Of a DNA stretch of 64,000 nt, positions 10,301 through 53,629 are shown in pieces. How positions within the stretch are numbered: position 1 is the first letter of the stretch; each line of letters starts with the position of its first letter. The translations under genes were made by a program, and so were the position numbers. The notes beneath the pieces are model-generated. The model had not been told where the DNA came from, made no database searches, and worked only from the letters and a program-made list of their open reading frames with translations. This DNA comes from Heliocidaris tuberculata (taxonomy: Eukaryota > Echinodermata > Echinoidea > Camarodonta > Echinometridae): contig CM046832.1 in the NCBI GenBank assembly GCA_025618425.1, positions 20,203,917 to 20,267,916 on the forward strand. The letters are read 5' to 3'.

Positions 10301-10419
10301 AACACGCATTTCAATGGGATGTCGGCGAACTTGTAGAAGTACTTTGATGAAACGATGCATATGCGCACCGCTGGCATCAGCAGGGCGTGGCCACATTGTG
10401 ACCTAAAGTTCACTTTTCG

Positions 10420-11935: not shown

Positions 11936-11992
11936 GGGGCGGCGCTACAGGGGGGGCAGGGGGGCAGCCGCCCCCCTATCATTTTTCAAGCG

Positions 11993-12031
<39 letters not shown>

Positions 12032-15655: not shown

Positions 15656-15659
15656 CGAG

Positions 15660-18170
15660 TAAAAGCTTATCTGAATATAAGCTGTACTACTCAACAGCTT
15701 TTATGGGTGAATAGGCTTCAATAGCTTTTGTGCGTATCAGCGGGCCTTTTTCCAGTCTAGATCACTGTAGATCACTGTAGATCATTCATCATCAGTTTAT
15801 GTTCCTACATGAGAGGAAAATAATTATTCAAAATTTCACTTTCAACTCTGAATCCCCAAATTTGTGGCACAGTAAGAGTTGAAGAGTCCCTGACTCAGGT
15901 AATCTAGCAAATCTAAGAAAATGAAATCTTGCTTAGAGTAATTTTGTTGTCTGTTTTTGACTGCTGCAACAGTGAATGTTGGACACCTGGACACAGGATT
16001 CCCACATAAGGCGATAAGCATCACTCACACTTATGCAAGGTTATTGCCTATTGGAGATGACCTAAGCATGGGCCTATTATAAGTGTGATGTATTATTACA
16101 TGCTTGTTACAAAATTGATTAATATTACATGCGTACATTTTGACGCAAAAAAACAGCTGAAAACGGGGTAAATTTCTTATTATGGAGGTAAGCATTTACA
16201 GGCAAACTATTCAAAATGTCCGCACACATGAAATGTCCATTCATTGCAGTGTGGCCAGCGAAAAAAATACAATTCTGCTAGGGTCTATATGAAAAATTTT
16301 ACTGCTAAATCAAAATTTTACTCAAAAATTCTCTGACAAGCAAAAAAAAAAAAAAAAAAAAAGGTTATCAGCATTTTGGGGTATATTTTTACTCAAAAAA
16401 TTCTGATAAGCAAAAAAAAAAAACACCAGAATTCTGCTAAAATTCTGCTAAATTTTGTCAAATTATGCCTAGCATAATGCTAGATGCTAAAATCGGTCAA
16501 AATTCTGCCAGAAAGCAGAATTCTGCCAACTCTGGCAACCTGGATTCATTGTGTAGTAAGCGAACGAACGTATGGTGGTGGATCCAGTGTCCGAACACTT
16601 TTCAGAAAATCAACGATAGCAAATAAAATATCCAACGAATATCGGTCAAACTTACATAATGAATGCTCAAAGTCCTACAGAAAAAGAAGTTGATAGAATT
16701 TTAAAAAGACAACGTAGATTTAATACGATATTCCCTTCCGAGTGAACCCCTTCCCGACGCAGCGTTTTGGTCCCTTGAAAAAGGTACCTTAATCCTGCTA
16801 GAAGTCAGACAGTTTTTTCATTTTCTTAAATAAATTTTATAATATAATCCATTAAACGAAAGAGTTAAATTTGAGAAACCCACCCTCCCCGTTTGCAACT
16901 GACAACAACATGCACTGTCAATACATGCAACAAACTTCAAGTTCAACAATACACAGAAATCAATAGATGGGAATGGCTGTCTGACAACTGACGGATTTCT
17001 TTTTCGTGAACCACAGGAAGTTAGCGATCATTTTTTGTTAAAGATAGGCATAATTTTTCCATGCATGATTGGGGAAGTGCAAGCACTAGCACAGGGATCG
17101 TTCTCCTGGGAAATGCATTGAATTTCAACCTTACTATAAAGCTAGACATAAAAAAGTGAGTTTTACAGAGCTGTAAGACGTAAGGTATCGTGCTAATAAA
17201 AGTCGAAAACTAGCACTCCTGAAATGTTAATTAATTTCAAACCTGAATAAATATCTGAATCGACAAGATTTTTCAACCAAACTACATATGGAGAAAGTAC
17301 AAGAACTGTGTTACATGACAAGCGTCCGTGAAGTGTGCGTCGAGCAACAACGCATCGATGTCCAAAATTGACTGACTGCGCGCACTGTCTGAATTCTAGC
17401 AGGATTACGGTACTGTAGATCTATTTCTGAACGTGTGAAACCTAGTAATAGTATGGGAAAAAGACACGGAAAGAATTCCTTTTGCAACAGCCACCCTTAA
17501 CCCACTAATACATGTACAAGCTTATCTGAAGATAACCTTGTACTCAGACTAGCTCTTTTATGGGTGAATAGGCTTCAATAGCTATTGTGTGTATCAGCAG
17601 GCCCTTTTCCAGGCTAGATCATTCGTACAGGAGAGGAAAATAATTATTTAAAATTTCATTTTCAATTCTGAATCCCCTAATTTGTGGCACAGTAAGAGTG
17701 GAAGAGTCCATGAATCAGGTAATCTAGCAAATTTAAGAAAATTAAATCTTGCTTAGAGCAATTTTGTTGTCTGTTTTTGACTGCTGCAACAGTGAATGTT
17801 GGACACAGTCCCACATAGGCAAGGGCCCATGAGTGCCCTTAACCCTAACCCTAACTCTGAGTCTAAAGTCTAAACCCTACCCTAACATGCCTAACCCTAA
17901 CCCTAAACCTAACCCTAACAAGGTTATATTATAACCTTGTATGGTGGTTGATCCAGTGTCCGAACACTTTTCAGAAAATCAACGATAGCAAATAAAATAT
18001 GAAACGAATATCTGTCAAACTATACATATTGAATGCTCAAAGTCCTACAAAAAAAGAAGTTGATGGAATTTTAAAAAGACAACGTAGATTTAATACGATA
18101 TTCCCATCCGAGTGAACCCCTTCCCAACGACGCGGCGTTTTGGTCCCTTGAAAAAGGTACCGTAATTCCG
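15660..18170 (+). repeat. Broken direct duplication (two paired blocks)
   Basis: Block A: 15660-15995 recurs at about 17519-17812 (shared GGGTGAATAGGCTTCAATAG and TTGCTTAGAG). Block B: about 16565-16795 recurs at 17938-18168 (shared GATCCAGTGTCCGAACACTT and GGTCCCTTGAAAAAGGTACC). Order and orientation are kept, but the first unit contains about 600 bp of A-rich sequence between blocks, while the second has a short telomere-like tract there. The simplest reading is a tandem duplication of a repeat followed by different insertions. Confidence 0.75.
17836..17930 (+). repeat. Interstitial telomere-like repeats (CCCTAA)n
   Basis: Degenerate CCCTAA units (ACCCTAACCCTAACTCTGAG, CCTAACCCTAAACCTAACC), the complement of the TTAGGG telomere repeat. 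A few more units (GCCCTAACCCTATAACCCTA) lie near 18335-18355. The tract is short and imperfect, embedded in ordinary repeats, so it is interstitial rather than a chromosome end. Confidence 0.8.
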
Positions 18171-19032: not shown

Positions 19033-19775
19033 CTCCATACGTGGGGCCGGGTGGAATTGAAACGGCGGGCAATATGGGCGTGAATGAAGCCGACCCATGG
19101 CAGCCATGCTCGCATCATGGCCATGCCCATGACCATGTGTCGCGTCAGTTGAGTTAGGCCTAGACTATTTACTTTTAGTTTTAGAGTACTGTTCTTTATG
19201 GAAAAAAAAAATAAACATACTATACATACGGTCTGTGAACTGTGGTTGGTCACTGGAGATCTACCTCTGCAGTAGTTTTAATAATAAAAACTTGGGTTTT
19301 CCTTTCAGTTTCACAGTTTCAATCTTTCAGTTTGCCGTCATAGAAATGAATATGCAATAACGTAGTCTTGGTTCAAGTTGGTCAGAGGAGTAGGTCAGAG
19401 GAGTGTCTGGCAGCTTGTTAGAGCAGTCAATAATACTGATCGAAGAAGGGAGGGAGAGGTGGAGGGAGAGGTTGAGGGGGGGGGCATGGAGAGCCGACGC
19501 CCAATCCCATTGGGATGGATGTTTGCTTCCCTCATATATAGGCAGGGACGTCGGATGGGGGGGGGGGGGCAATTATTATATTCTTATAGAAGACCAGTTA
19601 GAGAGCTTGATTGAACTTAAAAGATGGCATAGCTTTATTAAGGTACTGTGCAGGCAGACATCTTTGTAGTCAAGTCTCCATGTGCAGGTCTCATACAAGT
19701 ACTCATTGTTTCATAACTGACCTAGCCTAGCCTGTCATGAGTCATGGGTTACAGGTCACAAAATTGTATATTTAT

Positions 19776-22120: not shown

Positions 22121-22846
22121 GCACAGGATCAGTCTAAAAACACAAGATATTTCATAAGTAATTCTTAAAAAGGCCGGAATTCTACACAACCAATAGAAGT
22201 CAACATAAGAAAGGTCAAACCTAGAACTCTTACTCTTTTAAGAAACCTTTTAACTGGTTAATTCCCACCATTAACAGCACTGCTAACCAATTAACAAAAC
22301 TACCTTGTCACTGCGAGTCGATTACTTTCCCCATAGATACACGTGTAATTTGGGTGTTCTACGTTTTGTGTGGCAACATAAAAAGGCCGTTTTCAAACAA
22401 AATTGGCCAGAATTCTACATATGAGATGATTATATTTTTATGCTCAGCAGCTTCTTTGTTTCTTCAATATTCATATTCCTTTTTAACTGAATTAAATTGT
22501 TAAAAAGTGAAAAAGATATAAGTATTTCTAAAAGTTGAAATTTACGTTTTTCATGATTAATGTACAGGGCTCTATGGAGGGAATCGCAGAGGGAAAGTGA
22601 TAAGCGCGCGCATGGTAGAGAATGCAACACACTTTTTGGTATGTGGGGATATATTGCACGGTCATCCGGGTACTTTTACACAAACCATGAGATATTGTTT
22701 TAAAATTGCACGGTCATCCGGGTACTCTTGCGCAAACCATGAGATACGCCAATTTTTCTGGTCGCCTGAAAACCCTTCATACAAATAATAATTAGTTATA
22801 CCTGCTAGTCTGTATTTGCAGACTCTGTTAACTAGCTATCACTACA

Positions 22847-27541: not shown

Positions 27542-27621
27542 TATTATATTCTTATAGAAGACCAGTTAGAGAGCTTGATTGAACTTAAAAGGTGCAGGCA
27601 GACATCTTTGTAGTCAAGTCT

Positions 27622-27658
27622 CCCTGATAGCAGACTGACATCTTAAAGACGTCTTAAA
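27622..27658 (+). repeat. Left 37-bp terminal inverted repeat of the giant transposon
   Basis: Begins CCCTGATAGCAGACTGACAT and continues CTTAAAGACGTCTTAAA. It matches the inverse of 42346-42382 at 36 of 37 positions (A versus G at position 19). The inner half already contains the AAGACGTCTT motif that builds the adjacent arrays. Confidence 0.92.
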
Positions 27659-30600
27659 CTGGTCAAAACTCGTCCAACTCGTCATACGTCGTAAACATGA
27701 CATCTTTACGATGTCTTAATGACGTCTTGTAAAAAGATGATTTTTGTAGCCAAAATAATGACAATAATATGACGTGAATAAGACGTCTTGAAGACGTCGA
27801 TAAGACGTCTTCAAGACGCCTATATTAAGACCACTTTTGTCATTATTTTTTACAAAATTACGACATTTTAAAGACAATTTTAAGACGACTGTATAAGACC
27901 ACTAAAATACCGTTTAAAGACATCTTTAAGACGTCTTTAAGACGTCTTTAAGACGTTTATCAGACGTCTATAAGACGACTATATTAAGACCACTTTTGTC
28001 ATTTTTTAAAACCAAAATACAACATATTTAAGACGTATCTAAGACGTCTAGAAGACCGCTAAAATACATTTTAAAGACACCTTCAAGACGTCTTTAAGAC
28101 ATCTACAAGACGTTAATAAGACGTCTATAAGACGCTTATATTAAGACCACTTTTTTCATTTTTCTTTACCAAAATACAATATCTTTAAGACGTATTTAAG
28201 ACGTCTAGAAGACCACTAAAATACATTTTAAAGACATCATTAAGACGTCTTTAAGACGACTACAATACGTTGATAAGACGTCTATAAGACGCCTATATTA
28301 AGACCACTTTATCATTTTTTTAAAACCAAAATACGACATCTTTAAGACGTAATTCAGACGTCTATAAGACCGCTAAAATACATTTAAAAAACATCTTTTA
28401 AGACGTCTACAAAACGTTTATAAGATGTCTATAAGACGCCTATATTAAGACCACTTATGTCGATCATTATTTTTACAAAAATACGATATCTTTAAGACGT
28501 ATTTAAGACATCTAGAAGACCACTAAAATGCATTTTAAAGACATCTTTAAGACGTCTTTAAGACGTCTACAAGATGTCAGTAAGGCGTCTATAAGACGCA
28601 TATATTAAGACTACTTTGTCATTTTTTTTCCCCAAAATACGACATCTTTAAGACGTATTTATGACGTTTATAAGACCGCTAAAATACATTTAAAAGACAT
28701 CTCAGTTCAAGACGTCTACAAGACCACTTTTTTCCCATTTTTGTCCAAAATATGACGTCTTTAAGACGTAATTAAGACGTCTATAAGACCGTTTAAATAC
28801 ATTTTAAAGACATCTTTTAAGACGTCTACAAAACGTTTATAAGACGTCTATAAGATGCCTATATTAAGACCACTTTTGTCATTATTTTTTCCAAAATACG
28901 ATCTTTAAGGTGTATTTAAGACGTCCAGAAGACCACTAAAATACATTTTAAAGACATCTTTAAGACGTCTACAAGACGTTAATAAGACGTCTATACGACC
29001 GTTTAAATACATTTTAAAGACATCTTTTAAGACGTCTACAAAACGTTTATTAGACGTCTATATGACGCCTATATTAAGACCACTTTTGTCATTATTTTTT
29101 CCAGAATACGACATCTTTAAGACGTATTTATGACGTTTATAAGACCACTAAAATACATCTTCAAGACATCTTTAAGATGTCTACAAGACCATTTTTCCCC
29201 ATTTTTGATCAAAATACGACGTCTTTAAGACGTCTATAAGATCCAACTTTTTGATATTTTTTCCCAAAATACCACATAATTAAAACGTCAATATAGATTT
29301 GCCATTTTCTTTTTCATTGTTCTTTAGGTCTAGATCTAGAAGACCACTAAAATGCATTTTAAAGACATCTTTAAGACGTCTTTAAGACGTCTACAAGATG
29401 TCAGTAAGGCGTCTATAAGACGCATATATTAAGACTACTCAGTGTCATTTTTTTTCTCCAAAATACGACATCTTTAAGACGTATTTATGACGTTTATAAG
29501 ACCGCTAAAATACATTTAAAAGACATCTTCAAGAGGTCTACAAGACCACTTTTTTCCCATTTTTGTCCAAAATATGACGTCTTTAAGACGTAATTAAGAC
29601 GTCTATAAGACCGTTTAAATACATTTCAAAGACATCTTTTAAGACGTCTACAAAACGTTTATAAGACGTCTATAAGATATTAAGACCACTTTTGTCATTA
29701 TTTTTTACCAAAATACGATATCTTTAAGGTGTATTTAAGACGTCTAGAAGACCACTAAAATACATTTTAAAGACATCTTTAAGACGTTGATAAGACGTCT
29801 GATACGACCGTTTAAATACATTTTAAAGACATCTTTTAAGACTGTCTACAAAACGTTTATAAGACATCTATAAGACGCCTATATTAAGACCACTTTTGTA
29901 TTTATTTTTTTCTCCAAAATACGACTTCTTTAAGACGTCTTTAAGACGTTTATACGACCACTAAAATACATTTTCAAGACATCTTTAAGATGTCTACAAG
30001 ACCATTTTTTCCCATTTTTGATCAAAATACGACGTCTTTAAGACGTCTATAAAGATCCAACTTTTTGATATTTTTTCCCAAAATACCACATAACTAAAAC
30101 GTCAATATATAGATTTGCCATTCTTTTCTTTTTCATTGTTCTTTAGGTCTAGATGTCCGTAGTATAGTAGTAAATCATGTCACTGTGTGAAGCGTTTATT
30201 TTCGTAATGACAGCAATATGACGTCTATCACTGGCGTACACATGCATTGGGGCAGTTGCCCCCCCCCCCCCCTCAAAAAAAAAAAAGTTCCACGACCAAG
30301 GAAAAAGAATTCAGGAGAAAAATTAAGAAATTAAGAAAAGGAAAGGGAAAGGTTAAAATATGAAATCATTTTTTGGATATTGTGGAAAAATCTATCACAA
30401 AATTAGATTTTCATTTTAAGAAGGTCAAAATTTTCGCTCTCTCGCGTGCTCGATGTTCTGCCCCCTCCAAATCATTTAAGTTGGCTCATTACGCCACTGG
30501 TCTTTATTATATATTTAAGATGTCTTCAGGTCGTACTTTTTTGTCAGTTTTGGACCAAAATAAAAGCGACATCGCGAAGACGTCTTAATTAAAGACGCCT

Positions 30601-30665
30601 TTACAAAAAGCCCCTTTTATTGGCATTTCCGTCCAAAATACGATATCTTTAAGACGTCTTATACA
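27645..30665 (+). repeat. Left subterminal satellite array, ~158-bp units
   Basis: The landmark TATATTAAGACCAC recurs at 27821, 27980, 28137, 28294, 28441 and 28601, a spacing of 147-160 bp. Each unit packs many AAGACGTCTT/AAGACGTCTA palindromes, an AAAATACATTTTAAAGACAT block and a CCAAAATACGACATCTTTAA block. On top of this, about 820 bp is duplicated in tandem: AAGATGTCAGTAAGGCGTC at 28571 and about 29396, and GATCCAACTTTTTGATATTT at 29240 and 30054. A separate C-rich, A-rich insert occupies about 30230-30505. No coding potential. Confidence 0.9.
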
Positions 30666-32480
30666 TGTACGGTCACTTTTTTTGTTTTGTTCAAAAAGAG
30701 TGACGTCAAATATACATGAATTATATTACTTTTCTATCTTTAGTAATTTACTCCCTCCTCATTTCGTTTTTAACGCTTAAATTAAATTAAAAAATAATAA
30801 ACGATTATTATTAATTATTACACGGTATTTTAAAGCACTAGCTATCATGTCAAAACAAAGAGAAAAGTTTGAAAATGTGTGCATTGCATGCTATGATCGA
30901 GCACAACGATCATGCTGAGCAAGCAGAAATCATATAGCAGCTAGCTAGCTTGCATGTAAACGGTACGCGTTCGTTCGGCCGCTGCCAGCCTAGCCTGAAT
31001 TGAATGAAACATGCATATGCATTGCACGCTTAATGCACGGTACGTGTCTGATTCCGACTACACAAAACTACAGCCGAGGCCTGCCGAAGAAAATTTTACT
31101 TTACTTTTACTTTAGAGATCAGCATTCCCATTGAATTTATACAATTACCGGTACTCGGTCTACATCAACCTGTACTGAATTTGCATACCGTACCGTTTGT
31201 CTTTGTTGAGTAAGTCTAAAAATATTTTAAAATTTCTTTAATTTTTAATTCTAACATGTCTAACGTTAACTTAACGGTCGACGGTTGACATGGTTGACGG
31301 TTAAAAAACTTGAGCTGAGTGGCATGAGTGGCTATGGCCTTTTGTAACGGAAACCTGGTTAACCATGTTAACGGTTAGACTATTACAAAGTTAACTTTAG
31401 AGAGTTAGACCTGCTACGAAAGTAGTCACAGTGTCAGTGATCAACAATTGAAAGAGATTTTTTTTTAAATATCATCTGACTTTAGGCCTAGTAATAAAGC
31501 AAGCCAAAGTACGTTAATGTTAATGAAAACTAACGGCTTAATTGCCATGATTGCAGAATACCCTACCATTTTCTGGCTAGACTACATGCATATATGACAT
31601 GTTATGTATGAATGCATCGTTCTTTAAATGTACGTGTTGTCTACTCTGTTATGGTAGGGTATTCTGCAATTGTTCCTAACTGTTAGACCTAACTGTTACT
31701 ATCTTGTTAGTAATTGTTAGCTGAAAAGTGAAACTGAAAGTTGACTAAAGTAGAGTAGATCTAAGCGGTTATGTCCCTTCTCTTTATAACCCATTTTCTC
31801 CGTTGTTTTGTACATGACCTTGAAAGACTAGCGTATTTCAAAGGGTAATTTATAAGCATTTAGACTGTCCTTGTTAGGCAAGCTATATATCATTTAAAGC
31901 TTAGAATCCCTTCTTTTAGGTGCTGTAAAAAACAAGAAACCTAAATTTCCGAATTATTCGTGGTATTGAGTCGGCGAGTCACATTTCTAGTAAACTAAGA
32001 ATATGCCAAGAGTGAAATATCAACAACTTATTGTACAATATGTTTGTTTTTTTGTTGTTTTTTTTGTCACTGAAGCATTGCTTATTGCATCATTTCACAG
32101 AAGTTTTCTCCTCAAAACATTACAGAGAATCCCCAATTAAATGTTGTTTAATTTAAAACTTGCAGTTACAGTTGAACTCTGCAAAAATGATACACTACCC
32201 CTAAACCTTAATTCCACCTGGGGATGATGGAGGAGGGAGGCTCCATCAATCACTTTTGATAAACTGACAAAAAATTCTGTATGCAGTATGCTCCATTGAG
32301 GTTCCCAGTAGTTGTAGTTTGTACATGTACATCCACTGTCTTACTAATGAGAGCCAAAGACTTGAAAAAGAAATACATAAAAATTGATACAACATAAAAA
32401 CTGACATGAAGGAGGATAGAAGTTTAACGAATAATAGAAACCCTATGAATTACAGAAATTTTAATGGATTTTATTTTCAG
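30666..32480 (+). other. Giant transposon, region upstream of the first recognised exon
   Basis: About 1.8 kb where the promoter and 5' exon(s) of the DUF4806-type gene are expected. I could not identify a convincing 5' exon: the first recognised exon starts in phase 2, so at least one earlier coding exon should exist. A 121-bp hairpin element lies at 31550-31670. Confidence 0.5.
31550..31670. mobile_element. 121-bp MITE with perfect 20-bp TIRs
   Basis: ATTGCAGAATACCCTACCAT at 31550-31569 is exactly inverted at 31651-31670. The 81-bp centre is AT-rich and non-coding. Target duplication not resolved. Confidence 0.7.
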
Positions 32481-35400
32481 AACTCAAGTGCCTGTGTATT
32501 AAGGTTGAGGCGTTGAAGGAAGAAGTGAAAGCAAATTCAAAGCTTCTTCGACATGTTCTCCATATCATCACGCAAGGGAGAGAGGAGGAGGAGGTCGAGC
32601 CGAACGACATGCCCTCTCTGCCTCTTAATCATGTGGAGGAGATGACCGCACTAAATGATGCTTTGAAGGATGCGTCAAAGAGAAAGTATTTTGTAAGCAA
32701 AAAATGTGTTAATGTTGAATTGAAGTAGTGAAAGAAACTTGACCTCCTGTTCATGTTACGTGTAGTTGTTAAAAGTAGAAGTGAAGATTTATTTTATTCT
32801 AAGTCTTAGTTTAATACAATTCGATTATGCCATTGGCAAGCGTAATTCAAGTATGCTGCTTGTTACCCTTGAAGTTAACAAAAGAAGAAATAAAAAATTA
32901 CTTAATTCCATAAATGACTGATTATATAGCAATTTAAAGATTTTTTTTTTTTAAGTGCAGGAAGACAAGTGCTAGAATATTTTTCCATGTTAAACTCAGA
33001 ACATATTCATTAACCATATTGATGGCAACAATAATGTATTTATAATTTCTATATCAATTCAAAAAATACATTAGAATGATATATTCTAAAGCAAGCAGTT
33101 TTCAGGCTCAGCAAAAAATGTTTTCCTCCAATTTTTTTTTTTTTTTTCATAGATATTTGTGTGCCATTTGGGAACAGTATTTGGAAATTCACCCCTTGCT
33201 GTGATGTTTTTCAGGAATGATAAACAAGAGTAATGCCATTGAGGATTTTCTAAAACTGATCAGTTCATATACTTGATTGCTTGTGCATCTAAATTATGAA
33301 GGTGATGCATGAAAAGGCAAGTAATAGCACAGATTTCATTGCATACTCCAGATGTCCATGATGAGTAAAGTAGGAGGAAGAACAGTGGTGGAAGCTGTGA
33401 ATCGACAGCTGCAGACCTTGATGGAAATCAGGCTTGCCAACAAGTACAACTGGAAAGGTCAGCGAGGTGACTAGATCAAATTCTGCATGCTGAAAGGAGT
33501 GATTGGTGTAATATTTGGTAAATATAAAGCATTTTATTTGGATAAAATATAAATTTAAAAAGCAGTTGCATTTTAAAAACTATTCCTGAGTCAGGGGAAT
33601 CTCTACAAATTAAGTGTAGGGTAATTAGGAATCAGTCTGGAGCACTTGTAAAATTTGTATAACTGTGCAACGGTTTGCCAATTCGAATCAGAAATTGGAT
33701 GGTAGATTCCCTGTTGGGACCTTCATGAGACAAAGCCCTACATAGACCGAATGGGGGTGCCTCGCATGCAATGCTTAACCACTGTCCTTATGAGAGAATC
33801 GGGTGAGGTGCCTCACCCGACACGATTACAACTAAGCCGAAGTCAGAAATTAGAAAATAGCAGCCTAAATATTGAAAATGATGTATTCAATACAGTGGGC
33901 ATACCAGCTTTTTTCAAATTTCTGACATTTGGTTGAAATTTTTATGTAAATACAAGGTAGTGTATGGCTCATCAGTTTGCTTCCTCGCTGAGTGCAAGCG
34001 CTAGAATGTGTGCACCGACATGTACAGTGCTTGCATGTACATGGCTTGCGCTTGCATTTGCTGAGGAAGTATATCAGCGAGCCATACACTGCCATGTTTT
34101 ACTTGAAAATTTTACCCAAATCTTGGAAATTTCAAAAAGATGGTAACCCATCTGTTTTTATAAGATATCATTTTCAGTATTTAGGCTGTTATTTTGCAAT
34201 TCCTGACTTTAGTTTAGCCGTAATCATATCGGATGAGGCACCTCACCCAATTCTCCCATAGGGATAGTGATTAAGCATCGTGCAAGCCACCCCTCGTACG
34301 GTGCCTGTGGGAGACCTCCGTCTGCATAGGACAAGAATCTTAAAAGTCAGAAAATGTTATTTCTCCTCCAAACAGACGGATTTCTCTGTTTAAGATCACA
34401 GATGTCTTTGTGTTTGTGAAAATTGTTTGTTTTCATACTCTAAATTTATCCGAATATTTTTCTCATAATTAAAAGTGATATATTTCTGATCTGGCAAGGA
34501 CGAATGCATTAACTTGACTTCGCATGGTCAAGGATTTATCTAGTTTTTCTTACTTCGGGCAACATTTGGGAAGAAATTGAAATTGTAAGAATCCCTTAAC
34601 TGTTGACCCCATGACTTCTTGATACCGACTGACTTTACAACAGCAACTGACCGTAATTTTAAAGCCAAACTCCAGTAATCACAGTAGGTTCAGACATAGA
34701 TTAAACATGCCAAACGTTTTGAAATAACGAAATCTAATTGCAAATCCAGCATGGTGAAAATTGTAGGCTCGTGAATTGGTCATAATCAATTATACCTCGG
34801 AGAAAAGACCCGTCTAATTAGAGAAATCCTTGCTTATAAAGTAATTACTGATCAATTACTCATTATCTACCAGAATCATTTGGCACATAATAAGCTTCAT
34901 TTGGATTTTGCTCAACTTCATTTGGATTACACAAAATAGGAAGAATTCTTAATTTTTTAGATAGATCAACCACTGAACGATTAATCCATGCTTTTGTTAT
35001 GTGCCACTTTGATTTCTGTAATAGTTTGCTTTCTGGTCTCCCTTTTTCTCAAATTCAAAGACTACAACCCTTCAAAATTCTGCAGCCCGACTTGCTACAC
35101 GTACGAAGAAACATGAATCAATAACCCCAGTCTTACGAGATTTGATAAATTATAATTATGAACCCAGTGCATCTTTTCATGTCTTTTTCTCTCTTCCTTA
35201 CTAAGTGCATAGAGACATGCAATTATGCTTATGTGTTATGCGCTATATAAGAATGTTTAATTATTATTATTATTATTATATACATATATGTATATATATG
35301 TTGGGAATACTGTTGGAATGCTGTACAAACAGTTAAAATGTAGTCGGGTTGCAGTTAGAATTAGTGCTGTCGTTGAGAAAAAAAATCTGTCGACATGTCA

Positions 35401-36497
35401 TATTAAATTCTAGCCAACAACGACAGATTGTCGACAGAGTGATGGTTGGTAATATTTTGAGGAATTTGAGTCATACATTGCAATAAGGCTGTAACCGATC
35501 ATCGGATCGGACGCAGATACCGATCTGATTATGTCTGATCGGGATTGTATTTCCGATCGCCAATCCCCCTACGAGATTGACATAATCGAATTCAACATTC
35601 CAACTTGCAGTTTTGAAACGCAAACAAATTAGCAGCGATTAGAAAAACATAAATTTTCACTTCTTTATTTTAGGAAGATTTTACGTCAGACGTTCAAGGA
35701 TAATTTCGGTGGTGATTAAAAAAACATAATTTTTCACTTCTTTATCTTACGAATATTATATTTACATCGGAAGTTCAAGAATAATTTTGAAGGCAAACGA
35801 ATCTGCGGCAATTAGAAAAAAACATTAATTTTTACTTCTTTATCTAATATGCAAATGGTAATTATGTCAGGTGTTTAAGAATGATTTTAAAATGCAAATG
35901 AATAGATTGGTGCCGATTAGAAAAACCAGGGAGGTGGGATGATTTAACTACTCTGATTTTGTCGACTTTATCGAATCTCTGTCGACATGTCGTTTTCCGT
36001 CAGAAAACAGTGTTTGTCGACAAACGTATCGACAAAAGGCCTGTCGACAACAGCACTAGTTAGAATACACTTTGAATGCCATTCAGTATTTCTTTACTCT
36101 GAATGCACTTCAAAAGATTTGTATATAAGCAAAACTTTTCAGCCGCCCTCATAATCGGCCTGAAGATCAAATGTTCTCAGAATGCAGTTGCACTATTATG
36201 AATGCACTTCAAATATACAAGAATTACCACAGAATTTCATTCCAACAGCATTCTTGCTGATCCTGTCTCTAGTGTGACTAGAGTTTTAAGTTATCTATTT
36301 TTTCAACAGATGCTGTACGAAGTAATCCTGGATTACACGACACAAAATTAAAGGATGTAGAAGAGGCTATGAAGCGATATTTAAGATATGCATATCAGCG
36401 CTTACCAAAGCCACTCCCAGGACCCAGGAATTTGCAACCAGCACCAGGATCACCTGAAGAGATGATTGTTGAGGAAGCTGAAGCTGAATCCAATTGA
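32481..36497 (+). CDS. DUF4806-domain-like protein, three recognised exons (5' end missing)
   Basis: Exon 32481-32692 (acceptor TTTTCAG, donor TTT|GTAAGC), exon 33352-33457 (acceptor CTCCAG, donor AAAG|GTCAGC), exon 36310-36497 (acceptor TTCAACAG, stop TGA). Phases match: 0 at the first junction, 1 at the second. The first exon encodes a charged, coiled-coil-like stretch (VEALKEEVKANSKLLRHVL) and an acidic linker. The join of exons 1-3 gives the DUF4806 pattern: a helix ending in RKYF, then VGGRTVVEAVNRQLQTLM, the conserved NKYNWK, and LKDVEEAMKR. The C-terminus is Pro- and Glu-rich. AATAAA signals lie at about 36767 and 36799. DUF4806 proteins are expanded in several invertebrates and have no settled function. 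Position inside the TIRs suggests transposon cargo or an element-encoded factor; that is inference. Confidence 0.8.
33716..34335. mobile_element. ~600-bp foldback element in intron 2
   Basis: The two halves are reverse complements of about 80% similarity: CAATGCTTAACCACTGTCC with GGGATAGTGATTAAGCATCG, GGTGAGGTGCCTCACCCGA with its inverse, and CGCTGAGTGCAAGCG near the centre (about 34030). No coding capacity; exact ends and target duplication are not certain. Confidence 0.7.
34975..35280 (+). pseudogene. L2-like LINE fragment in intron 2
   Basis: A damaged frame near 34980-35150 reads CHFDFCNSLLSGLPFSQIQR, then ATRTKKHESITPVLRDL, the conserved post-palm segment of L2/CR1 reverse transcriptases, with a frame change near 35065. 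The 3' end reads GCGCTATATAAGAATGTTTA followed by (ATT)n at about 35262-35278, the same tail type as the LINE at 8230-8270. Confidence 0.8.
35362..36058. mobile_element. hAT-type non-autonomous element in intron 2
   Basis: 697 bp flanked by an exact 8-bp duplication GTTAGAAT (35354-35361, 36059-36066). Ends TAGTGCTGTCGTTGAG and its inverse with changes (TGTCGACAACAGCACTA). The interior has several ~90-bp degenerate direct repeats (AAACGCAAACAAATTAGCAG-like, 35620-35920) and TGTCGACA motifs. An 8-bp duplication with TAGTG/CAGTG-like ends is typical of hAT elements. No transposase. Confidence 0.82.
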
Positions 36498-39400
36498 TCA
36501 GGACAGCCGAGTGCTCTAGTTATGTATATGTTTTCTTTTTTTATGCCTCCACCCACTGAAGGTGTGTGCCGAAGGCGTTATTTATTTATTAATTTATTTT
36601 TTAGTTTTCTTTTTTCTGTTCAGGTACCTTTTTTTTTTACCGGAATTGTCACATGATGTTATCTTTTATTTTTAATGTGTTATTGCACTGCTGTTCATAA
36701 AGTTGGAATGAAATTGTTGGCATGTGTACATGTACATCTATTTATGAAATTATTATGAAGGGTTCACAATAAATGAATGTACACATCCTCAGATTTCAAT
36801 AAACTAAACTGAATAAGTATTGTCTCGCATGAATCCTAAAGCATGTATTATTACATGTATGCGTATAAAGCAACCATGGCACTTTAATTACTCTGCATTG
36901 GTAATTACTCTTAATTCCTTACAAAATGGTACTTCTTAGATGTCATCAACTCTGTTTCAAACCAGGGACTTCTTAGTTATTGGGCTATTTCTGTACATCT
37001 GAAACATGGACGTACCCAGTCGAGTACTTAAAGCTGGAAAAATGAATAAATGATACTGTAACAATCGATTGATAGAGCACTCTGAGGTAAAAAAAAATAA
37101 AAGAATTATTCCAACATTATGAGCAACAGTATACAATGATGTTGAAGGCTATATGATTGACGTTGATGGTTGTGCTATAAACCCCTCTGTAAAATATTCT
37201 TGTACAGTCCAGGTGCTGCGTGTGTAATAAGGGTTTTGCTATTTTACAATATTCCTTTGTGAATGAAGTGCTTGTAGCATTGGTGAGGATGGTGAAAATG
37301 ACTTTCCAGTATAAGTCTTGACATTATCAGTTAACTGATGGCCTACACTAAAACTTTCAGCGTAAATTTTTTACCTCAATAAGTAAACAAATATTCAACA
37401 AAAAGTTAGGGAAAATGACAACATATTTTCTTAATTTTCTGTTGCTGCCAAAGATATTTTCATTTGAACCAAGCCAATTCTATTGCAATTATGAAGTTTT
37501 ACAATGGTGCTTCCATTCCCAACACTTTCTTTGTTGGAAGTCTTTGCCAATTTATTAGTGATATGTATCTCATTTTTCTGCAGCTCATTTGTATTTATAG
37601 CTATACTTTTATTTAAACTGTTTGCACCGTATCAAACTGTATGTCAATGTATATGTGATACATGTATTTGCTATAGAATATTCATTTTATGAGCATGATA
37701 TACAAATATTGATTGCAACTTTTAGGGGCACAGTTAAAGGCAGTCAATCAGTGGTGTTTGCATGTTTTCTGGGCTGACCCAAGAAAACTTTGTCCATGGT
37801 CAAGGCTGGAGTTGCATGAAGGAAACCTAGCACTAGCTTTGTGATCTTTGTGGCGTAATAGCTAGTACGCCACAAAGATCACCTAGCTAGTGCTAGCATG
37901 ATGTGTTCACTCAATAGTAGGCACAACATTAACTCCAGGCTGAACAGCCATGCCACTGCGGCCGCCGGGCCACTTGCCTGGTCTGGCAAGAGTATGACAC
38001 AAGGTCTGTCAGCTGCATAGTGTGTAAGGTACCATCACAGCCATACACAATGATCTATGTCAGGGAGTTGAGCATTTTGCTGACCCTCGATATACTTTCA
38101 AATTGACCTAGATTCGTATACTGTACAAAAAGGTGTTCACTGCACCAGCAAACAGATTTTACTCCAGATTTCCTTTGAAACTATGGTACAAGGTTATCTA
38201 GCATCTGTACTGCGCCCATCAATTTTTAGTTGTTGTTTTTTTTTGATGGAAAGAAGAACATGCAAGTGGAGGTCTATTTTTTTAACATACTATTGTTGTT
38301 GAGTAGAAATTTGGTGGTCAAAATATCAAGTCAAATAGCTACATGTAGCTGACTTCATCACCTGTCGACAAAACAATGGTTGACAATGTTGTATTCATGA
38401 TATAGCTGTGCATCCACCAATATCTTCCCATGTTAAACACACTTTTATTGTTACTATACTGTGGTGGATAGTCACCCCAGAATAGACAAAGCAGCATGTA
38501 TAATCAACACAAACTAGTGATCAATAGCAATAACTTTGTGTTACTTTCTTACAGAAATTTTTTTTTTTCAATTATCATTGACCTTTAGCAAAATCAGGAA
38601 GGTGCAAATGTTATGCAGCACTCAACCTGTATAGATTAGCCTTGTCTTGTGAAATCAATACAACAGCACTATACTTTTGATTACGATTATATTCCATTCC
38701 TAACATTTCTGATTGTTTTGATGGAAAAATTTTGCACTCACTGTTGATCTTTATGGCTTTCTTTTAAGTTTTAAACAACTCATAATTCTTTTTGTGCAAA
38801 GCTAATTAGTTATACTGAATCAAATATGTATGATATACATAAGATAATAACTGTTCCCTTTGTAGCTGAAAAATATATCATAGCCCAAAATACAACAAAA
38901 TAAAGGCTGACATACATGTATTTTTATGATTAATGCTGCCAGATATATTTTTGTCTTTCATTGTACCCCCCCCCCCCCCCCCACTTTTAGAGGGGGAATA
39001 TTCAACATTTACTGTTGATATTGTGTTTTGCATACATGTTGTCATATACTGTTATAAACTTGTATTTTTGGTGTTATTTAATTACTGATAGCACACACTG
39101 TTGCAGCTGATGAATTTCATACCTCAAAAGTGAATATCTTGCCTATAATACAGTTGTACATGTATACCCTATCTTAGCCATTCTGGGGATAGCTTCAAGA
39201 GTTGAATTTGACTCTTTTTTTTTAGTTTTTTTTTTGTTGTATCACTGCTTTAGTCAGATCAAGCTCAGAAAAGAGTCAGAAGATGTATGCTTCATCTATA
39301 TTGGATAGTCAGTCAAAGAGATTTTGAACTGGAAATCATAATTGCGCATTGTCATTTAAACATGACTCGAGTCCAGCTTTACTCTTTGTGAAACAGTTCC

Positions 39401-41224
39401 TGGGATGTTTTCTTTTTTAATCACTTGTTTATACTTTTATTTACTTGTATCTAATTTTAACAGTAGTAGTAGTCATGTAGTAATATTTATTTGAAATGTA
39501 TCAAGTATGAGTAGAAATTGATTTTGTATGTTACAAGTTGTGTCATTTGATCAGTGTTGTAAATAGAAACAAAAATTCGGGGAGAAAGGATTTTTTTTTT
39601 TTTATTATCCTTTTATATTGGAAGCTCATGATATTTTTATGTACATAAACATGTATTTATCTCTAAGCACTATCCAAAAATGATGTGCCAAAAATCTTTC
39701 CAAATTGAGATGTTATGCAATACCCGTTCCTTGTGATCAGAAACACAAGTTCCTTTTCTAGCCTGAGCTGAGGACATGACCGTGAGATTGATTTTGCTCT
39801 ATCTTCAGTTCAGGTCAATTGTGGGGTTCAAATACAGAACATAATTGCAAATGCAAAGAAATTGTCCTAAAGGTCGCATGGGAAAATCATATCCATAACA
39901 GAAATATGAGACCACACACTGGTTTTGTTTTTTATGCCAAAACAGGCACCCACCTTTTTGCTGGGTGCCATAGGCAATATGTTTTGGAGTTGGAGTTTGG
40001 AGTTATCCGTCCATCTATCCATCTGTCTCGCTTTTAGAAATGAAACGTGTGCCAAACTCATTAGCATGATCAAGGCCGTCTTGTGAGATTGTGAGTACAA
40101 ATAATGAAAGATGCACAAGACCTGACGTAGCTGTATACATGTATACCACATATTCTTCTCCGAGCTTTCGGCTAAATAAGCCTTTTTCAAGGATCTACAA
40201 CAAAATATAAGAAACAAACTTAATGGCAAGCGTAAATGAACTGAAAGGAACTTAGGAAAAACAAAAATAAAATGTTCAAACTAATATAAGCAAAATAAGG
40301 TAATATAAACGTAAAAATTATTACCTGCAGTAGTGGTTCTGTGGTTCTTGCTCATGTACGTGTGTTGAATCACATGATATGGTCCGTCACACGAGCTCAG
40401 TTCCGTAACATGATTAGGGCTGGAAAGGATATGGGGTAATTTTGATTTTGCTTTATCAACGGGGAGATTCACTTACGTGAATTTAAGTTACTATTTTTGT
40501 TTTCATATATCTTTTTGCTTTGAAAGGATGCAAAATATAAGATGTACATGTATGGACAAATCATGGGGGGGGGGGGGGTTATTTAAAAAAAAGGAAAATT
40601 TTATTAGATGTTCACCACGTATATATATTGTAACCGAAATACATTAAGGTTACCAGCAAAGCTTTGTTTTACTGTAGGAATTATCGAAGCAACTTCTTGT
40701 ATTTCTTGATACATGTATATTTAATATGTGCATGCTGCCAACATGAGTATTTGTTTTCATATTTATTATGTATACTTATTAAAGGTTGAAGTATAAAACT
40801 AATGCCAGCTTGATGTTACTCTTGCATGTAATTCGTATACTCTGTGTTATTGTTTGATTGCAGGCCTGGATCCAGGAAATGGGAAATACAGATGTTGCCT
40901 GTGTGGGGAGTAATGCCTTCACCTCCCATTGGATCCGGGCCTTGAGTGTATGGTTCCTCGGCATCTGTTCAGTGTGCTTGCACGAAGAAGTCGGAAATGA
41001 CAATGCAAGAAAAAAAAAAACACATCTACTGTCTTCTGAATCCGCTAACAAGTCTAGAATCATCAAACGTCTATGATTTGGTATCTCTGATGTCTTCTTT
41101 GTTGTTACCATGTCTCCAGGATGTACAAAAGACACTTTTTTATTCCTCTGCTCACATCATGTAAGTGCCAGAGGCATTACCAAATATGATCAAGGATATG
41201 ACGACTTAAGGATTAACCTGTCTA
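36498..41224. other. Giant transposon, region downstream of the DUF4806-type gene
   Basis: About 4.7 kb with no gene I can support. Starts with the 3' UTR and polyadenylation-like signals of the gene. A 33-bp-arm hairpin lies at 37828-37896 (GATCTTTGTGGCGTA and its inverse). Near 40158-40200, CGAGCTTTCGGCTAAATAAG followed by CCTTTTTCAAGGATC resembles a motif I associate with Penelope-like element ends, weakly. Short open frames here lack motifs. Confidence 0.5.
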
Positions 41225-42345
41225 AAGGACATCGTAAAGACGTCCAAATGACGTCTTATTTAGGTACTACACATGCAAAGGATGCTAAATGATGTCTTAT
41301 TTTTATAATAAGCATGTCTAAGAGATATCCTGAAGGCATCCAAATTACGTCTTATTTTGTGTAATAAAATACGTCTCGGAAACATCCTGAAGACATCCAG
41401 AAGACGTCTTGTTTTGATAAACACGTCTAAGAGACATCCTGAAGACATCCAAATGACGTCTTATTTTGATAATAAACACGTCTCAGAGATGTCCTGAAGA
41501 CATCCAAATGACATCTTATTTTGATAATAAACACGTCTAATAAGAATCCTGAAGACATCAAAATGACGTCTTATTTTGATAATAAACATGTCTAAGAGAC
41601 ATCCTGAAGACATCTAAATGACGTCTTATTTTGATAATAAACATGTCTTAGAGATATCCTGAAGACATCCAAATGACGTCTTATTTTGATAATAAACACG
41701 TCTCAGAGATATCCTGAAAACATCCAAATGACATCTTATTTTGATAAGAAACATGTCTTAGAGATATCCTGAAGACATCCAAATGACGTCTTATTTTGAT
41801 AATAAGCATGTCTTAGAGATATCCTGAAGACATCAAAATGACGTCTTATTTTGATAAAAAACATGTCTTAGAGATATCCTGAAGACATCAAAATGACGTC
41901 TTATTTTGATAATAAACATGTCTTGCAGATATCCTGAAGACATCCAAATGACGTCTTATTTTGATAATAAACACGTCTCAGAGATATCCTGAAGACATCT
42001 AAATGACGTCTTATTTTGATAATAAACACGTCTAAAAGACATCCTGAAGACATCTAAATGACGTCTTATTTTGATAATAATTATGTCTCAGAGACATCCT
42101 GAAGACGTCCAAATGACGTCTTATTTTGATAATAAACACGTCTATGAGACGTCATAAAGACATCCATATGACGTTTGTTGGGTAAAAATAACACGTCTAA
42201 ACGACGTCATATGGACGTCTTTTTTTATCAATAAGACGTAATAATGATATCAAAATACGATGTCTTTAAGACGTCAAACGTGGGTGCAAACTGATGACTT
42301 TTTGACGTCTTTACCTGACATCATTAAGACGTATAGCTTTTCGTC
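41225..42345 (+). repeat. Right subterminal satellite array, 55-bp units
   Basis: About 15 units with the core ATCCTGAAGACATCCAAATG followed by ACGTCTTATTTTGATAATAA and then ACRYGTCTTAGAGAT. The CCTGAAGACATC landmark recurs every 52-55 bp (41386, 41438, 41493, 41548, 41603 and onward). The last ~200 bp before the TIR become irregular, with AAGACGTCTTTAAGACGTC runs like those of the left array. Units are unrelated in period and most of their sequence to the left array, sharing only the ACGTCTT theme. Confidence 0.92.
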
Positions 42346-42382
42346 TTTAAGACGTCTTTAAGACGTCAGTCTGCTATCAGGG
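42346..42382 (-). repeat. Right 37-bp terminal inverted repeat of the giant transposon
   Basis: Read on the plus strand it ends CAGTCTGCTATCAGGG directly before CAAGTCT. It is the inverse of 27622-27658 with one mismatch. Confidence 0.92.
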
Positions 42383-42514
42383 CAAGTCTCCATGTGCAGG
42401 TCTCATACAAGTACTCATCGTTTCATAACTGACCTGTCATAGGTCACTCTATATTTAGTTATACCTGCTAGTCTGTATTTGCAGACTCTGTTAACTAGCT
42501 ATCACTACAGCAAT

Positions 42515-48817: not shown

Positions 48818-51800
48818 TACGAAGCCCCATAAGGGCCGAATCGGACAACGTAAAAAAAAAAAAATAATACGTACGTACGTAGTAATATTACGTACGTACG
48901 TAATATTACTACGTACGTACGTAATATTTACGTACGTAATAATTATTAATTACGTACGTACGTAGTATTTATTACGTACGTACGTAATAATAATACGTAA
49001 GTACGTAGCATTTATTACGTACGTACGTAGTATTTATAATACGTACGTACGTAGTATTTATTACGTACGTACGTAGTATTTATTACGTACGTACGTAATA
49101 ATAAAACGTGAAAAGAGTGAAATCCACTTTTTGAATCTCAAACAAATGTCTATCCTATCCTTATCCGTCGATTCCCAGATGATTTGCCACAATATAATAA
49201 GCGCTATTGTGAGCTCATGTCTAGTGTATCTCAACATGATTATGTGTGTGCATGGTGAGTGTGTCCCTCCCTTTTCACAGCGGCATCCGGTACCATAATA
49301 TTTTGCTTCCAATAGAAGCAGGAAAATCAGAAAAAATCAGAAAATCGGACAACTTCTTACTTCTGGACAAGTTATGAATTTTTCAGAACACGAAACACTA
49401 TTTAAAACAATGAAAATCACTATGACACTAGACGATTTTTTTTTTTTGATTTTTTTTTTTTAATCTGTCGCTATGTACGATTCTTCGTATAGACGCAATG
49501 TTTCTTAATATTTAGAACCCTATAGCTCTCTATCATAGGCGGTAGTAGAAAGGGGGCAGACGGTAGCTTCCATCTATGGGGGGCAAAATATCCCCCCCCC
49601 CCCACGATAATAACATTTTTGGTATTGCGATCAGCTTTCTAGTACTCTAAACATGTTAAAAGACAAGGTTACACTATTGCAACACCCAACCTCGTAGCCA
49701 GGATTTCATTTTCAAACCTTTTTTTTTTAGGCGGAAAATTAGTTCGACGCCCGGACTGCTTTTCAATTATTTGGACGCAAAATATGTACTGCACTGTAGG
49801 CCTATGTAACAGGGGTGGGTGCAGGGAGGGGGAGTTTCCCCCTTCCTGCGCGAAGCGCGAAATTTAGCTCTGACGTTTGAGAGAAAGTTAACGGCTCGTA
49901 GAAAATATTTTTTTAGGCGGAAAGTTAATATAGTTCGACGCCCGGACTCCTTTTCAATTATTTGGAAGCAATACTGCAATGTGTGTAAACAGGGGTGGGT
50001 GGAGGGAGGGGAGTTTCCCCCTTCCCACGCGAAGCTCTGACGTTTTAGTAAATTTGAGAAAAAAATAAGGGCTCGTAGAGCCTTTTTAGGCTTATTTTTT
50101 TCTCTCACTACCCCTCCCCCCGCTTTTTCTTTCACTCTGTCGCTATGTACGATCCCTCGTATAGACGCAATGTTTCTTAATATTTAAAACCCTAGCTGTC
50201 TATCATAGGCGGTAGTAGAAAGGGGGCGGATGCTAGCTCCATCTATCGGGGGGGGCAAAATATTCCCCCCCCCCCCGATAGATGGAGCTAGCATCTGCCC
50301 CTGCCCCCTTTCTACTACCGCCTATGGTAGACAGGGTTCTAAATATAAAGAAACATTGCGTCTATAAGAGGGATCGCACATAGCGACAGAGTACTACATC
50401 CTGCATCCGCCCCTGTCGTGGACTGTCAGTGTCAGACTCATAGGCGTAGCCAGGGGGCCTGGGGGCCATGGCCCTCTCCCTATTCAGCCCCTAAAAAGAA
50501 GCGAGAGTGAAAAAGCGGGGGAAGTGCAATGAGAGAAAAATGCCTAAAAAGGCGCTACAAGTCGTTATCTTTCTCTCAGAATTTGCTAAAACGTCAAAGG
50601 AATTCCCCCTCCCTGCACCTACCCGTTACATACAATGCAGTATTGCGTCCATGCATGCAAATTGAAAAGCAGCGCGTCAAACTAACTTTCCGCCTAAAAA
50701 AGGGTGCTCTCACATTTGCTATAAAACTTAAGAGCTTTCGCGCTACGCGAGGGAAGCGGGAACCTCCCACCCCCCCCCCCCCCCTCCCTGCACCCACCCC
50801 TGGATTACAGTGCAGTATTTGCGTCCAAATAATTGAAAAGCAGCCTGGGCGTCAAACTAATTTTCCGCCTAAAAAAGGTGCTACGAGCCGTTATCTTTCT
50901 CTAAAATTTGCTATGAAACGTCAGAGCTTTCGCACTTCGCGTGGGAGGGGGAAAACTTCCCCCTCCCTGCACCCACCCCCTGGGGAGCACGCTTTGCATG
51001 TTCTCATCAATTTCGCACGCTTCGCGTGCTCACAACCGCCACTCCTAAAATGAAATCCTGGCTATACGCGGTTCGATCCTTCACGTCTGGCCCCCGCCCC
51101 CCCCCCCCCCCTATTGAAAAAATATATCTATAATAGGGTTCAGAAGCCCCCTCCCACTACATTGTCGGTCTCTCAGGGTTGTCGGTCTCGTTAACTGAAG
51201 CCAAACTAAACGACGCCACCAACTCGATAGGGATCGCAGATCGCAAAAAATGTAGGTGTTGCCAGGGGGGCGGTAGGGCAGTCGCCCCTCCCAATAAAAA
51301 CCGCCACCCCCCCCAAAAAAAAAGCGAGAGCGAAAAAGGGGGAGGGGTAGTGAGAAGCCTAAAAAGGCTCTACGAGCCGTTATCTTTCTCTCAAATTTAC
51401 TAAAACGTCAGAGCTTCGCGCGGGAAGGGGGAAACTTCCCCTCCCTCCACCCATGCACCCATGCACCCAGTATTGCTTCCAAGTAATTGAAAAGGAGTCC
51501 GGGCGTCGAACTATAACTTTCCGCCTAAAAAATGTTTGCTACGAGCCGTTATCTTTCTCTCAAATTTGCTAAAACGTCAGAGCTTTCGCGCTTCGCCCGG
51601 GAAGGGGGACCCCCCCCCCCCTCCCTGCACCCACCCCTGTTACATACAGTGCAGTACATGTTACCTAAAATGAAATCCTGGCTACGCGGTTTGGTGTTGC
51701 CATGGTGAAACCTCGTCCTTTAGCATGTTTAGAGTACTATCAAGCTGATCGCAATACCACAAATGTTATTATCGTGGGGGGGGGAATATTTTGCCCCTCC

Positions 51801-53629
51801 CCCCGATTGATGGAGCTAGCACCTGCCCCCTTTCTACTACCGCCTATGATAGACAGCTATAGGGTTTTAAATATTAAGAAACATTGCGTCTATACGAGGG
51901 ATCGTACATAGCGCCAGAGTGAAAGAAAATGCTGAAGCATGCATTTTTAAAGCACTAACAAGCTTATTATATATTGTCAAAATGCGAAATCAAATTATAT
52001 TTTCGTGCGAGGGGGGGGGGGGGGCTTGAATGGTTGGAGGCAATTAACTGCTCACTCTACCCCCCCCCCCCCCCTGCGCTTCCGGCGTCTAATTAGGTTC
52101 AATACTAAGTTCAAGTTAAAAGGAAATCATATTCTTGGATAAAAAATTTAGAGATTTTATTATCAAAAATATAAAGAAAATAGGCCTAATGCCTTGTGGG
52201 GGATTTGGTCACAAACTCATGACAAAAAAAAAAAAAAAAAAAAAATTGTCTAGTGTCATAGTGATTTTCATTGTTTTCAATAGTGTTTCGTGTTCTGAAA
52301 AAAATTCATAACTTGTCCAGAAATCCGATGAGAAGTTGTCCAATTTTCTGATTTTTTTTTCCTGATTTTTCTGCTTCTATTGGAAGCAAGAATATGGTAT
52401 CGGATGCCGCTGTGAAATTTCTAGGCACTATTATAAACTTTCATGGAAGCATCATATTGATAATGTATGTAAATTGATATCCAGAAACATTGGTATGATT
52501 AATAAACTCAAATGGTCTTTTCCGCCAAACATTCTTTTATCACTATACTCCACACTGGTTTTATCATATCTAAATTATGGAATATTAGCTTTCAAGTTCA
52601 AGTACAAGTTCAAGTTCGCTTTATTTCATATTCACATTTCACATTTCAGTGTTAATACATTATTGTCGGTTGTAGGTTTGTTAACAAGAATTAATAACGA
52701 TGAAAATTAATAGTGTTTATGTAATAAACATGATTACAATATATTGTATCAGTTTTGGTTACTTGTAATTTAAAAGAATGACTATAACAAAATTGGAAAT
52801 GAGGATATGAAGGAGCCTAAAGTAAAAGCAGAGCTTGTTGGTTATAGGCTCCAGAGAGTAATAAAATATATAAGTCTTACAGGGTTGTGTAAAAGAACAA
52901 GAAACAGTTAAAGTTAAGTTTAAGTAAAACAACTACATGTATTATTAAAGTTTCATCAAATGTGAAAGAATAATCAGCGAAGGATACTTAAGTGCAATAA
53001 ATAAGAAAAAGTATGGATTTAAGCACGGAAGAGGATAGATATCGATATCAGATTGATAATTGTATAATCGCTATGATGAACATACTACCCATGCGCCTGG
53101 GGAAACAGTGCGGCATGCCTGTTAGAGTTTTTTTATTACAGAAAAAATGCTATGGCTTAATGCTGTAATAATAAGAATGAAATAAAATCTAAATCTGAAA
53201 TCTGAAATCTGAAAAGGGAGGGACACACTCACCATATACGCACACATATGTTAAGATACTCATACTAGACATGAGCTCACAATAGGCTTATATAATTATA
53301 TTGTGGCAAATCATCGGGGAATCGACGGATATAAGGATAGGAAAAACATTTGTTTGAGATTCAAAATGTGGATTTCACTCTTTTCACGTTTTATTATTAC
53401 GTACGTACGTAATAAATACTACGTACGTACGTGTTATTATTACGTACGTACGTAATAAATACTACGTACGTATACGTAATAAATACTACGTACGTACCGT
53501 ACGTACGTAATAAATACTACGTACCTACGTAATAAATACTACGTACGTACGTAATAATTATTACGTATACGTACGTAGTATTTTTATTTATTTTTTACGT
53601 TGTCAATTTGGCCCTTACGGGGCTTCGTA
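48818..53629. mobile_element. 4.8-kb palindromic TIR element
   Basis: Flanked by GAAATT (48812-48817, 53630-53635). Ends TACGAAGCCCCATAAGGGCC and, inverted, the same with one change. The arms correspond over most of their length: ACGT-rich tracts (48860-49105 with 53395-53580), AAAAGAGTGAAATCCAC with its inverse, CAGCGGCATCCGG with its inverse, and a 150-bp block around CTATGTACGATTC. That block occurs four times, in alternating orientation: near 49465, 50138, 50272 (inverted) and 51775 (inverted). Between them lie arrays of ~170-190-bp units (TTTTCAATTATTTGGA; AGGCGGAAAGTTA), opposite in orientation in the two arms. The right arm is interrupted by a LINE. No coding capacity; family unknown. 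Confidence 0.83.
52418..53209 (+). pseudogene. 5'-truncated LINE inserted in the palindrome's right arm
   Basis: 52418-52595 encodes a reverse transcriptase tail: ISRNIGMINKLKWSFPPN then LSLYSTLVLSYLNYGILAF, typical of LINE RT C-terminal to the palm. The 3' end has AATAAAATC followed by (AAATCTG)n at 53187-53212. TGAAA flanks both sides (52413-52417, 53210-53214), and the left arm of the palindrome (CCCTTTTCACAGC) shows the uninterrupted site. A (TTCAAG)n tract at about 52591-52620 may mark a second small insertion. Confidence 0.8.

Follow-up and report, generated by a model that had tools for sequence, protein, structure and literature searches.

What moves a large transposon in which no transposase can be recognized, and is the gene that it carries its engine or its cargo? 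The question is raised by an element of the sea urchin Heliocidaris tuberculata that has terminal inverted repeats (TIRs), carries a gene of the DUF4806 family, and lies in a stretch of 64,000 nucleotides (assembly GCA_025618425.1, contig CM046832.1, positions 20,203,917 to 20,267,916 of the forward strand) that is referred to below as the window. The element occupies window positions 27622 to 42382 on the forward strand (14,761 bp, approximately 14.8 kb). It is probably a large non-autonomous TRC/CACTA-like transposon that is moved in trans and carries a captured, apparently unselected piece of a DUF4806 gene. That gene is most likely a passenger and not the engine of the element.

Ends, insertion site, and genome family

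The span of the element is defined by its TIR ends and by an empty-site paralogue, and 29 TIR-paired copies were found in the genome. The left 37-bp TIR (27622 to 27658, forward strand), which begins with CCCTGATAGCAGACTGAC, and the right TIR (42346 to 42382, reverse strand) are identical at 36 of 37 positions. A search of the genome (69 contigs, 897 Mb) for the terminal 23-mers, with up to three mismatches allowed, found 60 plus 54 occurrences, against 0 plus 1 for a reversed-pattern control, which is more than chance would give. The TIRs of the original prediction were confirmed. The host site is an LTR (long terminal repeat)-like repeat that the transposon interrupts, and its uninterrupted copy, which had likewise been predicted, was recovered as a paralogue at 19574 to 19723 (no strand assigned) with the junction at 19666. 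This paralogue corresponds to 27542 to 27621 plus 42383 to 42435, and a second block, 22788 to 22846, corresponds to 42451 to 42509. The label LTR is taken from these repeats and from minus-strand zinc-knuckle/protease-like retroelement matches at 26.0 to 26.9 kb, judged by eye.

Genome searches, in which the best candidates were scored, gave 40 matches for the left end, 30 of them at 98 to 100% identity across nearly the whole end, and 40 for the right end, 32 of them at 97% or more. Pairing of the ends yielded at least 29 elements, a lower bound, with 23 of 14.2 to 16.3 kb and six of 21.9 to 53.3 kb. Three left ends (C9 at 5.06 M, C11 at 24.6 M, and C5 at 12.0 M) and three right ends (C2 at 42.2 M, C5 at 1.47 M, and C5 at 1.78 M) could not be paired and were excluded. 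A further 18 short pairs of 576 to 4400 bp, paired by eye, have nearly identical TIRs, their right end being related but not the same; among the 100 ends listed of the 114 counted with the terminal 23-mers, no other close pair was seen by eye. Six copies that share a stop codon in the gene, including the window copy, are 99.70 to 99.88% identical to one another, two copies with an unbroken gene (C18a and C11a) are 99.75% identical, and divergence among the three groups compared (nine copies) is 1.3 to 2.1%. The transposon family is real, young, and mobile.

The window copy is flanked on both sides by CAAGTCT (27615 to 27621 and 42383 to 42389, forward strand), as a comparison of the flanks shows. 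A duplication of 7 to 9 bp had been predicted from this copy, and while the 7 bp stand for the window, they do not hold for the family. Flanks were inspected for 20 of the 29 pairs, and with one right flank masked, 19 copies were readable. In 18 of these 19 the duplication is 2 bp long, with the dinucleotides AT, TT, TA, AA, CC, GA, GC, and TG, whereas flanks shuffled 20,000 times agreed at 2 bp in 2.9 of 19 copies on average and in 10 at most. No agreement at 3 to 6 bp was found in the 18 copies tabulated. The 7-bp duplication occurs only in the window copy, whose 2-bp position disagrees, and the longer duplication was rejected as a mark of the superfamily. Our guess is that the flank of the window copy reflects an aberrant insertion.

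In the copies read, the TIR begins with CCC (CCCTGATAGC). TIRs that may display a CCC start, together with 2-bp duplications, are described for the animal TRC elements of the CACTA superfamily (PMC1636069), and Spongebob_HMa of Hydra was placed in TRC/CACTA by the same two features (PMC4298943). The 2-bp duplication of the readable copies other than that of the window thus agrees with TRC, and 9 of the first 11 bases of the TIR equal those of a Tribolium TRC end (PMC1636069), a value that random CCC-starting ends reach in 0.4% of cases. SmTRC1 of Schistosoma resembles the element in its 2-bp flank repeats, reported for 7 of 14 copies, in an internal tandem-repeat region, and in the insertion of some copies within LTR retrotransposons; the element differs in that no Transposase_21 open reading frame (ORF) was found, in its length of 14.8 kb versus approximately 5.2 and 9.2 kb for the two TRC elements whose sizes are given, and in the DUF4806 piece aboard (PMC1636069). 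The transposase of Spongebob_HMa is also unreadable, owing to stops and frameshifts, but that element is 5.8 kb long and its description, as far as it was available, makes no mention of a captured gene (PMC4298943). Since the CCC TIR and the 2-bp duplication fit the published TRC group, an undescribed transposition system is not needed.

A search of the genome for Transposase_21 (PF02992) gave no match, and 14 control genomes were equally silent. Because the search and its controls were both empty, membership in TRC would be read from the ends and the duplication alone, with no transposase to tie the element to the group. It is conceivable, if unlikely, that the ends come from a different superfamily that also makes 2-bp duplications, such as ISL2EU or an unnamed one; no transposase ties them to any superfamily, and the start of a TIR is weak evidence. 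ISL2EU elements are described with A|AT|T targets and TIRs usually starting with GG (PMC4482050), in contrast to the varied dinucleotides and the CCC start found here.

The DUF4806 gene and its copies

The gene lies on the forward strand in three exons, 32481 to 32692 (called exon 2, with a coiled-coil-like stretch, seen by eye, and the start of the domain), 33352 to 33517 (exon 3, the domain core, followed by the donor GTAAAT), and 36310 to 36497 (exon 4, including the stop codon). The exons are supported by splice sites placed by eye, by Pfam matches of the spliced protein, and by a homologous stretch on C5; a first exon was not found. The DUF4806 family (PF16064) is matched above its curated cut-off of 25 bits, at 27.3 bits when exon 3 is shortened and at 26.7 bits when it is kept whole, with X at the stop. 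The spliced DUF4806-like gene of the original prediction was thereby recovered, but not in an intact form: when exon 3 is extended as far as the splice site compatible with the domain, an in-frame TAG (33472 to 33474, forward strand) interrupts it at codon 111. Two broader searches were empty. When the spliced gene was compared with a protein database, 0 of 190 candidates reached an E value of ≤0.001, and the DUF4806 profile gave no match in the genome, where the domain is split across exons and where control genomes were silent as well.

Exons 2 and 4 are present in all 29 TIR-paired copies, according to a tally for which pair and exon coordinates were entered manually from the end, exon, and 23-mer searches. 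Copies with the same TIRs but without the gene, which the original prediction had named as evidence against itself, are therefore absent from the long family; they are to be found only in a looser sense among the short elements with nearly the same TIRs, where the eight of 18 that were read contain no DNA match to the gene. Copy C11b has no exon 3 match and was excluded from the codon count. Among the other 28 copies the gene is broken in 14, by the shared stop in nine and by a frameshift in five, and it is unbroken over these exons in the other 14.

Codon variants over the 28 copies comprise 19 nonsynonymous changes, five synonymous changes, and one stop, for which the neutral expectation, with transitions weighted 4:1, is.684,.277, and.039, respectively. 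Because dead copies drift in any case and variants common to several copies mark lineages that have transposed, variants found in at least three copies were tested separately (nine nonsynonymous, four synonymous, and one stop, counted by eye). An omega of 0.2 is rejected both for all changes (P = 5e-6) and for the changes in at least three copies (P = 0.008), while an omega of 0.5 is rejected for all changes (P = 0.01) but not for the shared ones (P = 0.23). Variable columns number 25 of 567 in the exons versus 42 of 667 in the intron that separates exon 2 from exon 3, with no significant difference (Fisher P = 0.17). The DUF4806 coding sequence looks to be without detectable codon constraint, its changes being as expected without selection.

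The high mutual identity of the six stop-bearing copies means that their transposition was recent and that the gene they took along was already broken. Since the stop lies within this recent burst, a copy can move without encoding the complete protein in cis. The unbroken copies C18a and C11a moved as recently, and supply of the protein in trans is therefore possible.

A protein search of the genome gave 96 matches from 100 scored candidates, among them near-identical matches to exon 2 and to exon 4 (29 each, one per TIR pair). Seven diverged DUF4806 matches with 40 to 56% identity, on C5, C6, and C7, belong to none of the 29 pairs. The C5 locus matches all three exons in unchanged order, with 49% identity over a 57-residue core, which supports the splicing model. 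Two of the outside loci were read, one over 17.8 kb and the other over 19.7 kb, of which 1,562 bases were masked, and neither the 10-base TIR core nor GACGTCTT/AAGACGTC was found in them; DUF4806 therefore exists apart from the transposon.

The element can be compared with the Pack-TYPE transposons, such as Pack-CACTA of Arabidopsis, which are non-autonomous TIR elements with host coding DNA (PMC8903248). It has TIRs, a duplication, and no transposase match. As to a coding gene of the host, what was observed is the Pfam match to DUF4806 and diverged, unannotated relatives outside the TIR pairs, the best of them 56% identical in the genome search. Pack-TYPE elements differ in being described in plants and, for rice and maize CACTA, in having 5-nucleotide duplications (PMC8903248); moreover, a close donor was not found here.

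Mobilization of the element

En/Spm, the CACTA element of maize, has subterminal repeats of short motifs near both of its ends. In the element of the window, a left subterminal array (27771 to 30002, forward strand) consists of 11-bp units of the type AAGACGTCTWT in higher-order repeats of approximately 110 to 210 bp, and a right array (41287 to 42174, forward strand) consists of 16 copies of a 55-bp unit that also contains GACGTC/CGTCTT motifs (TRF and motif counts). All 67 GACGTC sites of the element lie within roughly 3.5 kb of its left end or 1.3 kb of its right end, with none in the middle, and thus crowd both ends as the subterminal repeats of En/Spm do. The element differs from En/Spm in that its TIR is not CACTA and that neither TnpA nor TnpD was found.

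The original prediction had recognized no transposase, and none emerged here. Among 130 ORFs of at least 40 amino acids in the core of the window copy, taken from both strands, seven Pfam families were matched at an E value of ≤0.05 (best, 0.0011), none of them a transposase family, and the longest stop-to-stop ORF has 137 amino acids. An Rfam scan of the element was also without matches. An ORF at 39792 to 40034 gave a match to MIT_C of 19.3 bits, below the cut-off of 25, which may be due to chance or may be a second captured gene piece. By ORF length and by eye, no transposase of their own was seen in the eight of 18 short relatives that were read or in two solo left ends, on C2 (13.7 kb read) and C10 (10.7 kb read).

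It is unlikely, on this evidence, that the element is autonomous and encodes a transposase of many exons, too short or too diverged to be recognized. Such a reading would gain from the ORF scan having been limited to 40 amino acids or more and to the window copy, from the 23 of 29 pairs that fall within 14.2 to 16.3 kb, as if the whole interior mattered, and from SmTRC1, for which several transcripts produced by alternative splicing are reported (PMC1636069). In addition, some 250-bp bins at a distance from the gene (e.g., those at 34622 and 39872) show no or almost no differences among the lineages compared. The 130 ORFs without a transposase family and the maximal ORF length argue against it, as does the identity between lineages along the core, which is mostly 96 to 100% with one dip to 85 to 89% and has no clear coding-like pattern, a comparison of low power in which the DUF4806 exons do not stand out either.

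The longer copies were rejected as an autonomous form for two of the six, in which the extra length consists largely of nested insertions. In C12a (23.6 kb), 7.5 kb of the extra sequence is a nested gypsy-like LTR element, with approximately 1.4 kb besides (8.7-kb stretch read). The gypsy-like element (L099, on C12) contains long gag- and pol-like ORFs and was classed by eye. In C10a (21.9 kb), the extra sequence is mainly a 7.1-kb nested insertion with inverted ends of its own and no ORF of more than 129 amino acids. This insertion (L011 to L013, element positions approximately 9055 to 16177) has the ends CACTAAGAA...TTCTTAGTG and is itself CACTA-like in sequence. A 4.1-kb relative on C13, the only one among the short relatives and solo ends that was given a Pfam scan, was rejected as a transposase source, as its 217-amino-acid IS630/Tc1-type ORF (matched by HTH_29 and HTH_23 above the cut-off and by DDE_3 just short of it) belongs to a nested element. 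The nested element (L101, 1764 to 3924) has 72-nucleotide inverted arms (72% complementary) and TA flanks.

For the gene itself, the original prediction left the choice between DUF4806 as part of a transposition system and the capture of a host gene, and the evidence favors capture, short of proof. It is improbable that DUF4806 is a working accessory protein comparable to TnpA of En/Spm, a BEN-type protein that would bind the GACGTC arrays and bring the ends together, with the catalytic transposase coming from a partner. The constancy of exons 2 and 4 across all 29 pairs, the open frame in 14 of 28 copies, some of them recently moved, and the 67 candidate binding sites would suit such a role. 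A BEN link has been reported for DUF4806 (PMC11075544) and counts for it, and a description of expansions in Hydra lists DUF4806 next to transposase domains (PMC7642931). Against it stand the lack of detectable codon constraint, the 14 of 28 broken copies with a stop common to the recent subfamily, the eight short relatives without a gene match, and the two outside loci without TIR core and arrays. Still less probable is its narrower form, in which a BEN-like DUF4806 protein from the unbroken members would act in trans through the GACGTC arrays as the second, DNA-binding transposition protein of a TRC-like system, as a newly recruited accessory.

We return to the passenger gene, for which we infer the following course. 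A genomic piece of a DUF4806 gene, with exons, introns, and older retroelement debris, would have been captured before the present copies spread. A transposase from elsewhere would recognize the TIRs and possibly the GACGTC arrays near both ends as candidate binding sites, and would thus mobilize the element in trans. The DUF4806 gene would ride along, a moving copy not needing a gene of its own.

Several observations weigh against this course. No autonomous partner was found in these searches, and the 7-bp duplication of the window copy is out of line with the 2-bp rule. The codon test is built on only 25 changes, and an omega of 0.5 survives on the shared ones (P = 0.23). The unbroken copies C18a and C11a are as recent as the broken ones, which would allow a supply in trans, and the gene is kept in all 29 pairs, which is not required of a neutral passenger. 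No close donor came to light, the best outside matches having 56% identity in the genome search and 61.5% over 52 residues by tblastx. A capture would then have had a donor that is lost, masked, old, or from elsewhere. Finally, the C6 locus contains, besides the gene, two short stretches, of 56 and 47 bp, that match positions 30390 to 30499 of the element. They lie at 14405 to 14531 of the joined stretch L050-L051, approximately 4.6 kb from a decayed DUF4806 exon.

The family illustrates clearly how a TIR transposon, here with TRC/CACTA-like ends, can carry and amplify a gene: a single gene piece is present in 29 or more copies, and recent copies are numerous enough for selection on the cargo to be measured. 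In the open-access literature as far as it was available, with subscription papers and Repbase outside the search, no report of DUF4806 inside a transposon was found. Expansions of DUF4806 reported in other animals may partly be transposon cargo, and it is worth checking for flanking TIRs before they are read as adaptive.

Other repeats in the element and the window

The last intron of the DUF4806 gene contains a fragment like the reverse transcriptase of a non-LTR retrotransposon (34993 to 35135, forward strand), detected as a tblastx match to window positions 6458 to 6601 and classed by eye. The same intron holds a pair of 117-nucleotide inverted repeats (83%; 33771 to 34278, no strand assigned), found by an inverted-repeat search, that resembles a miniature inverted-repeat transposable element.

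Outside the element, positions 48838 to 53565 contain inverted arrays of ACGTACGTACGT-type repeats separated by approximately 4 kb. Additional large inverted repeats lie between the arrays, at 49.4 to 52.3 kb, and the region resembles a second large element of palindromic or TIR type. At 10425 to 11932, nested inverted repeats of 71 to 190 nucleotides that are 89 to 93% complementary surround a 565-nucleotide center, in the manner of a foldback-like element.

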